The notes beneath the pieces were generated by a model. It had not been told where the DNA came from and made no database searches. It saw only the letters and a program-made list of their open reading frames with translations. Of a stretch of 64,000 nt of DNA, positions 7,720-54,084 are shown piece by piece. How positions within the stretch are numbered: position 1 is the first letter of the stretch; the number at the start of each line of letters is the position of its first letter. The stretch is from Natronorubrum texcoconense. GTDB taxonomy: Archaea > Halobacteriota > Halobacteria > Halobacteriales > Natrialbaceae. Where the stretch lies: assembly GCF_900100335.1 (NCBI RefSeq), contig NZ_FNFE01000007.1:186001-250000 (forward strand), read 5' to 3'. The translations under genes were made by a program, and so were the position numbers.

Positions 7720-7806
7720 TCGCCTGTCGTCGGCGGCGCCGACTGGGATAGTAACAACTGAAACGATTTACACACCGATCGCATAGCTCGCGGGTCGTCG
7801 CTCCCC

Positions 7807-7897
7807 CTCGCTTTGCCGCGGTTCTCGCTCACTTCGTTCGCTCGCGGGTCACTGCGTTCCCCGCTCGCTTTCCCGCGGTTCTCACTCACTTCGTTCG
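7807..7897 (+). repeat. Two direct copies of a 34-base unit, period 57
   Basis: The unit at 7807-7840 (ctcgctttgccgcggttc...) recurs at 7864-7897 with two differences. Both contain the low-complexity string TCACTTCGTTCG. They lie inside the long palindromic element. This kind of GC-rich 'cgctcacttcgttcg' sequence yields open frames on the minus strand but I see no sign of a real gene. Confidence 0.7.
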
Positions 7898-7898
7898 T

Positions 7899-7958
7899 TC
7901 CGAACCGCGTACGCTCCGAACCGCGTACGCTCCGAACCGCGTACGCTCCGAACCGCGC
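7899..7958 (+). repeat. 16-base tandem repeat, 3 full copies plus a partial one
   Basis: Unit tccgaaccgcgtacgc at 7899, 7915 and 7931, then 12-14 bases of a fourth from 7947. The copies are identical and have no spacers, so it is a simple tandem array, not CRISPR. It sits in the centre of the long palindromic element. Confidence 0.85.
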
Positions 7959-8030
7959 TTCCCTCCTGCGATCGGATGTGCATTGACTTTCAGTGTCTAC
8001 TATCGGTTGCACTACAGGGTTCGAAACGAA

Positions 8031-53577: not shown

Positions 53578-53660
53578 TATAGTAGCCACTGAAAGTCAAT
53601 GCACACCCGATCGCACGACAGCTGTGCGATCGGTGTTACATCGTTTCAGTTGTTACTATA
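53578..53660 (-). repeat. Palindromic dispersed element, short copy (copy B)
   Basis: 83 bases. Plus strand reads tatagtagccactgaaagtc at its left end, then gcacacccgatcgca, nine unpaired bases (cgacagctg), tgcgatcggtg, and cagttgttactata at its right end. It is copy A (7747-8003) in the opposite orientation with the long insert absent. The last bases supply the TAG stop (53656-53658) of the VOC gene. Lies between the VOC and PHP genes. Confidence 0.8.
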
Positions 53661-54084
53661 CGTCCGCGGGTTCATCCGGCGCGACGACCTCGACTTTGAT
53701 CCCCTCGGGATCCTCGCAGTAGAGCGCGTAGTAGCCGCCGGCGTAGGGGTGGCGATCCTCGTAGAGCACCGTCGCGTCCGCCCGGTCGCGAACGCCGTCC
53801 GTGAGCCGATCGACCTGTTCGCGGGAGGTGCCGTGAAAGGCGAGGTGGTTCAGACCGGCGGCCCGACGGTCGAACGGCTGGTCGGCGTCGTCCGCCCGGA
53901 CGAGCACGAGATACGTCGGCCCGTTGATCCACGACCGACCCCCGCCCCACTCGTTTTTCTGTTCGTAGCCGAGTTCGGCCAGCAGCCAGTCCCAGAACGC
54001 GACGGACGCCTCGAGGTCGGACGCGTACAGTTCGACGTGATGGAGCCCTCCGGCGCGGGCTGGATCGGCGTGGTCGCGGCTCAT
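53656..54084 (-). CDS. VOC (glyoxalase/dioxygenase fold) protein
   Basis: 142 residues. GGLHHVELYASDLEASVAFWDWLLAELGY and LNHLAFHGTSREQVDRLTDGVRDRADATVLYEDRHPYAGGYYALYCEDPEGIKVEVV form the two beta-alpha-beta-beta-beta modules with the metal-type His and Glu (HHVEL, HLAFH, IKVEV). Function in small-molecule resistance or catabolism; substrate unknown. The stop codon is the edge of the palindromic element. Confidence 0.86.
   Translation of the reverse strand: MSRDHADPARAGGLHHVELYASDLEASVAFWDWLLAELGYEQKNEWGGGRSWINGPTYLVLVRADDADQPFDRRAAGLNHLAFHGTSREQVDRLTDGVRDRADATVLYEDRHPYAGGYYALYCEDPEGIKVEVVAPDEPADV

Follow-up and report, generated by a model that had tools for sequence, protein, structure and literature searches.

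Two loci in a 64,000-nucleotide stretch of the Natronorubrum texcoconense genome (the window) carry inverted palindromic sequences with centres of very different lengths, which raises the questions of what kind of element they represent, how it moves, and how its centre changes. We conclude, with high confidence, that both are copies of a MITE of the IS630/Tc1-mariner type, in which two IS-like ends (A and B) are paired, insertion is at TA and favours CTAG, mobilisation would be in trans by an IS630-family transposase, and the loop is subject to rewriting.

Two inverted copies of an asymmetric element

A first-pass annotation of the window reported two inverted palindromic loci with their arms in opposite order, and the arm matches at both loci show that these are real. 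Copy 1 (7749–8002, minus strand in the A-to-B orientation) reads B..A and copy 2 (53580–53658, plus strand) reads A..B; the loci had been placed correctly, but the spans are slightly narrower than first given, the outer bases being the target dinucleotide. In copy 1, the B arm (TAGTAACAACTGAAACGATTTACACACCGATCGCA; 7749–7783, plus strand, starting at 7749) and the A arm (TAGTAGACACTGAAAGTCAATGCACATC..; 7967–8002, minus strand, starting at 8002) enclose a long core of tandem GC-rich modules (7784–7966, no strand assigned), with 2.0 copies of a 57-bp unit and a 32-bp period made of two 16-bp units. Copy 2 consists of an A arm (53580–53615, plus strand, starting at 53580), a short loop (53616–53623, no strand assigned) and a B arm (53624–53658, minus strand, starting at 53658) with a 1-nt deletion relative to the consensus. 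The cores are as unequal as had been claimed, with about 184 nt between the arm matches in copy 1 and about 10 nt in copy 2.

Over 28 nt the A arms of the window have 0 and 2 mismatches to consensus A (TAGTAGCCACTGAAAGTCAATGCACACC) and the B arms have 0 and 6 mismatches to consensus B (TAGTAACAACTGAAACGATTTACACACC), the six in copy 2 resulting from the 1-nt deletion. Chance is excluded for these matches, since a shuffled arm gives a mean of only 0.05 such matches per window. Arms A and B differ from each other at 8 of 28 positions, and the proposal of an asymmetric element with an orientation therefore holds. The arms also travel as a unit, as proposed: in each of the 120 arm pairs examined an A is partnered by a B, with no A+A or B+B, and the inter-arm gap is usually 10–12 nt. 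The short form (TAGTA...TACTA) spans about 80 bp, with a loop of about 10 nt separating arm A from arm B, while long forms reach about 507 bp; the consensus is TAGTAGCCACTGAAAGTCAATGCACACCCGATCGCACGACGGCTGTGCGATCGGTGTGTAAATCGTTTCAGTTGTTACTA with TA on either side. The terminal inverted repeats are imperfect, and this short unit has no transposase ORF.

Copy 2 is flanked by TA duplicates at 53578–53579 and 53659–53660. At copy 1 these positions are degenerate, with GA on the left (7747–7748) and TC on the right (8003–8004) in place of TA. GA and TC are complementary to one another, as if a correction process had extended the palindrome into the target duplicate.

The element is dispersed and multi-copy

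The arms occur well beyond the two sites in the window. Searching the 4.64 Mb genome from which the window derives (G000) with both copies revealed at least 36 loci, at least 28 of the short form and at least 8 of the long form. In a first sample, the element was present in 30 of 37 genomes of the same family compared with 1 of 24 others, and in an order-wide sample it was present in 77 of 293 genomes, 50 from the same family and 27 from three other families, with up to about 140 candidates in each element-bearing genome. It is an abundant short repeat of the family that includes Natronorubrum, Natrialba and Natrinema, and is also found in Haloarcula and its relatives. Plasmid matches include Natrinema, Haloarcula, Natronorubrum, Halomontanus and Halomicrobium, and most of those listed lie outside annotated genes, with no annotated feature beneath them; no match was found in the phage records and viral contigs searched. 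At three loci (L058, L086 and L111) there are tandem or near-tandem copies with almost identical flanks, and some of these stretches contain N.

Insertion occurs at TA with a preference for CTAG

The first-pass annotation had suggested looking for target duplications, and we joined the flanks of G000 copies and sought the corresponding empty sites within the genus. In the nearest relative, G003, the sites of L012, L028 and L018 are empty and contain a single TA where G000 has TA-element-TA; the site of L035 is also empty, although the right duplicate there is mutated. These four sites establish insertion with TA duplication, and the count leaves out L027, for which the empty site is ambiguous, and L013 and L015, which are too diverged. 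Five other copies (L031, L026, L017, L025 and L038) are present in both G000 and G003 and so are older. The element is thus polymorphic in its insertion as well as dispersed and multi-copy.

The TA is preceded by C and followed by G in 29 of 67 element copies, whereas CTAG accounts for about 1% of background TAs (14 of 1188 across the window, 9 of 553 close to elements). We conclude that the element inserts into TA, prefers CTAG and duplicates the TA. Movement of IS630-family elements is by cut-and-paste with duplication of TA (PMC2170065), and that article also cites Tenzen & Ohtsubo 1991, whose title states a preference of IS630 for TA within 5'-CTAG-3'.

The ends resemble those of IS630-type elements

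In N. aibiense, two IS630-type elements have ends that read, directly after the TA, TAGTAG.. and TAGTAAC.. (or TAGTATC..). The closest relationship of the arms is to the group these represent, the ISNamo16 group (annotated as ISNamo16 or ISNpe3 in plasmid records), which spans 1055 bp between TAs, is found in 77 of 125 genomes of the family, and shares with the element the asymmetric ends TAGTAG.. / TAGTAAC... Both arms of copy 1 are related to these ends, arm A to the 3' (transposase-downstream) end (TAGTAGACGTTAGAAATAATTGCTCAC) and arm B to the 5' (transposase-upstream) end (approximately TAGTAACCGTTAGAAYTTTYTRCTCA). Ungapped identity is 16–21 of 28 positions (mean 18.2) for arm A with the 3' end and 15–19 of 28 (mean 16.8) for arm B with the 5' end, and neither score was reached in 20,000 shuffles. 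The first 6–8 terminal bases are alike, position 6 shows the same G/A asymmetry, the spacing to an inner TGCNCAC / TACNCA motif is identical, and the IS itself lies in CTAG in 23 of 27 cases. The ISNamo16 group scores 32–39 of 56 against the arms and other IS630 subgroups about 6–29 of 56. When the first seven terminal bases are removed the similarity is modest (p = 0.0016 for arm A with the 3' end and p = 0.12 for arm B with the 5' end), and so the end-by-end match of arm B rests largely on the terminal bases. Given the arm-end similarity, the spacing, the CTAG target and the lesser likeness of other subgroups, the asymmetry of A and B is best explained, from sequence comparison, as that between the right (A) and left (B) ends of an IS630-type element. 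The two nonetheless differ: the ISNamo16-group IS has TTAGAAA-type ends and two overlapping transposase ORFs in its 1055 bp, and the element has ACTGAAA-type ends and no transposase ORF in its approximately 80 bp. The two overlapping transposase ORFs, as seen at L068:1427-2485, suggest a programmed frameshift.

The TA duplication, the CTAG targets and the IS-like ends together indicate that the element is a MITE and that an IS630-type transposase acting in trans most likely moves it; the large number of copies and the lack of an ORF also support the mobilisation in trans that was first proposed. Such a transposase would bind arms A and B and cut and paste the element, and if it needs one end of each kind, this would account for the element's orientation. 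Changes to the stem pairs and loop may come from slippage during replication, from template switching, and from gene conversion acting within a copy and between copies.

The first-pass annotation had also envisaged a full-length parent carrying a transposase. The related ISNamo16-group ends were recovered, but no IS with exact ACTGAAA-type ends (TAGTAGCCACTGAAAGTCAATGC / TAGTAACAACTGAAACGATTTAC; TAGTAGCCACTGAAAGTC / TAGTAACAACTGAAACGATT) was found among IS630 locus ends across many genomes, and a search of N. aibiense plasmid sequence totalling about 784 kb found none with ACTGAAA-type arms either. A single long A..B candidate, L177/L296, came to light; it was rejected as a parent because here an ISNamo16-type IS has inserted into an existing copy of the element. 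At L177:947-2087, on the N. magadii plasmid NC_013924.1, this ISNamo16-group IS630 is located at a TA inside arm B of a MITE copy.

It is a tenable possibility, to which we give somewhat less than an even chance, that the helper is specifically an ISNamo16-group transposase and that the element descends from such an IS by internal deletion and divergence. The shared terminal bases, position 6 asymmetry, spacing and CTAG target, together with the wide occurrence of the IS in the family, are in its favour, but the identity of the ends is limited and the abundance of the element does not track the presence of the IS, with G007, G009 and G112 being element-rich and lacking such an IS. We detected no DDE_3 transposase in G000, nor in the element-rich genomes G112, G107, G129, G178 and G157, and a comparison by eye of helper presence with element copy number showed no supportive relation. 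Because several element-rich genomes have no DDE_3 match, the helper may have been lost, missed or be of a different kind. The assignment of the element to the general IS630-type class is firm and that of its exact helper is not.

Covariation in the stem

At stem positions we counted 81 double Watson-Crick changes; shuffles averaged 25 and never exceeded 36, and sliding the pairs left 3–10. Cells in this test count sequences rather than events and the numbers are therefore inflated by shared ancestry; the sample was partly picked using an exact 25-mer of arm A, and the subset not picked in this way gave the same outcome (52 versus at most 30). This covariation would be explicable by paired terminal repeats acting under one protein, or by template switching at the palindrome. 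It is rather doubtful, in our estimation, that the hairpin is kept by selection or active intrastrand correction, as a long-lived and partly domesticated palindrome in which the loop is a hot spot of tandem-repeat growth. If true, this would represent an archaeal system that rewrites the centres of elements in place through palindrome-driven template switching or gene conversion.

A further alternative is that the sequence is a structured RNA or a host regulatory element, such as a terminator or processing site, that is retained for its hairpin. The excess of double compensatory changes and the position of most plasmid copies outside annotated genes are in keeping with this, but the G-T and A-C deviations in the stem are comparable (83 and 67 respectively) and so carry no sign of an RNA strand, an Rfam search of the copy 1 region gave no match, several insertion positions are specific to a species and have clean empty sites elsewhere, loops are inverted or replaced at orthologous sites, and fitting of both terminal repeats to one transposase, or template switching, would also generate covariation. 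We regard this explanation as very unlikely.

The element also forms a strong but imperfect hairpin in which internal loops are conserved and compensatory changes occur, and this would fit a REP-, PATE- or IS200/IS605-type element that a Y1 transposase moves in single-stranded form. In PATE and IS605 types the target is not duplicated (PMC3119063), and REP/IS200-605 elements likewise leave no target duplication. The duplication of TA at empty sites contradicts this class, and the ends are IS630-like; we reject it as highly improbable, and with it the suggestion that the element might be a REP.

The long core and changes of the centre

The long core of copy 1 (about 184 bp) is built of GC-rich modules, a unit of 54–58 bp and a 16-bp unit (GCGCGGTTCGGAGCGT), and long cores of other copies also include a 35-bp palindromic unit. 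A 29-mer from the core unit is nearly confined to Natronorubrum, and in N. bangense as many as about 5.5 units of 54 bp occur together. Of the core-module stretches sampled, most are flanked by arms A and B and a few occur alone; core-type modules without recognisable MITE arms are seen at G000:C2:866341-866426, G000:C9:31904 and G000:C10:308494. At one orthologous site (L017 versus L142) G000 has a short core where G003 has a long one, and at a second (L026 versus L141) the loop is inverted, from which it follows that the centre changes in place.

These observations qualify the earlier suggestion that the element can exchange its centre: a difference between short and long core is borne out at an orthologous site, but the long core is a genus-specific, VNTR-like composite filling of the loop. 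As such cores are found mostly between these arms, loop expansion, contraction or gene conversion is favoured over cassette exchange; the change could have taken the route of slippage, template switching or gene conversion. In Natronorubrum such changes may have loaded some loops with GC-rich modules in tandem, from which the long-core form at 7749–8002 would have arisen. A site-specific recombination site that swaps cassettes at its centre could produce the differences at both orthologous sites, but the long cores belong to a single family of tandem modules in one genus and insertion of the whole element with TA duplication accounts for its dispersal, and we consider this explanation scarcely credible. 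The loop differences at orthologous sites provide a natural record of palindrome-associated sequence change.

Relationship to known elements

Several bacterial MITEs, including Correia/NEMIS and RUP, are attributed to IS630-type helpers. Like the element described here, these are TA-flanked palindromes of about 80–150 bp with dozens of copies and no transposase, although the haloarchaeal element has a different sequence and different hosts, unlike arms that are always paired as A+B, and a tandem-repeat loop in one genus. The MITEs, PATEs and SMRs of Haloquadratum are likewise transposase-free mobile repeats of haloarchaea (PMC3119063), but PATEs have neither terminal repeats nor target duplications and SMRs, which target other mobile elements, make no target duplication (PMC3119063), whereas the element has both features. 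An SMR of the Haloquadratum type, with inverted repeats and an unknown means of mobilisation, would be similar in size and copy number (PMC3119063); the TA duplications and the resemblance of the ends to a known IS are the opposite of the SMR definition, and this class is rejected as having almost no likelihood.

The mechanism is an ordinary one and the element is apparently undescribed: we found no paper that treats IS630 MITEs in haloarchaea, nor one on ISNamo16, and a name may exist in ISfinder, which lay outside the search. With a measured target, defined ends and a candidate helper family, the element lends itself to annotation, can serve as an insertion marker for comparing strains, and offers a two-ended IS630 substrate for testing.

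Neighbouring genes

Copy 1 appears to be intergenic. Copy 2 adjoins a glyoxalase/VOC-like gene, named from its sequence (53656–54084, minus strand), the TAG stop codon of which (53656–53658) coincides with the element's first three bases, and the last codon of which, GTA, includes the TA duplicate. The end of the protein set by this stop is ...VVAPDEPADV, and the element-supplied stop probably replaces an earlier C-terminus.
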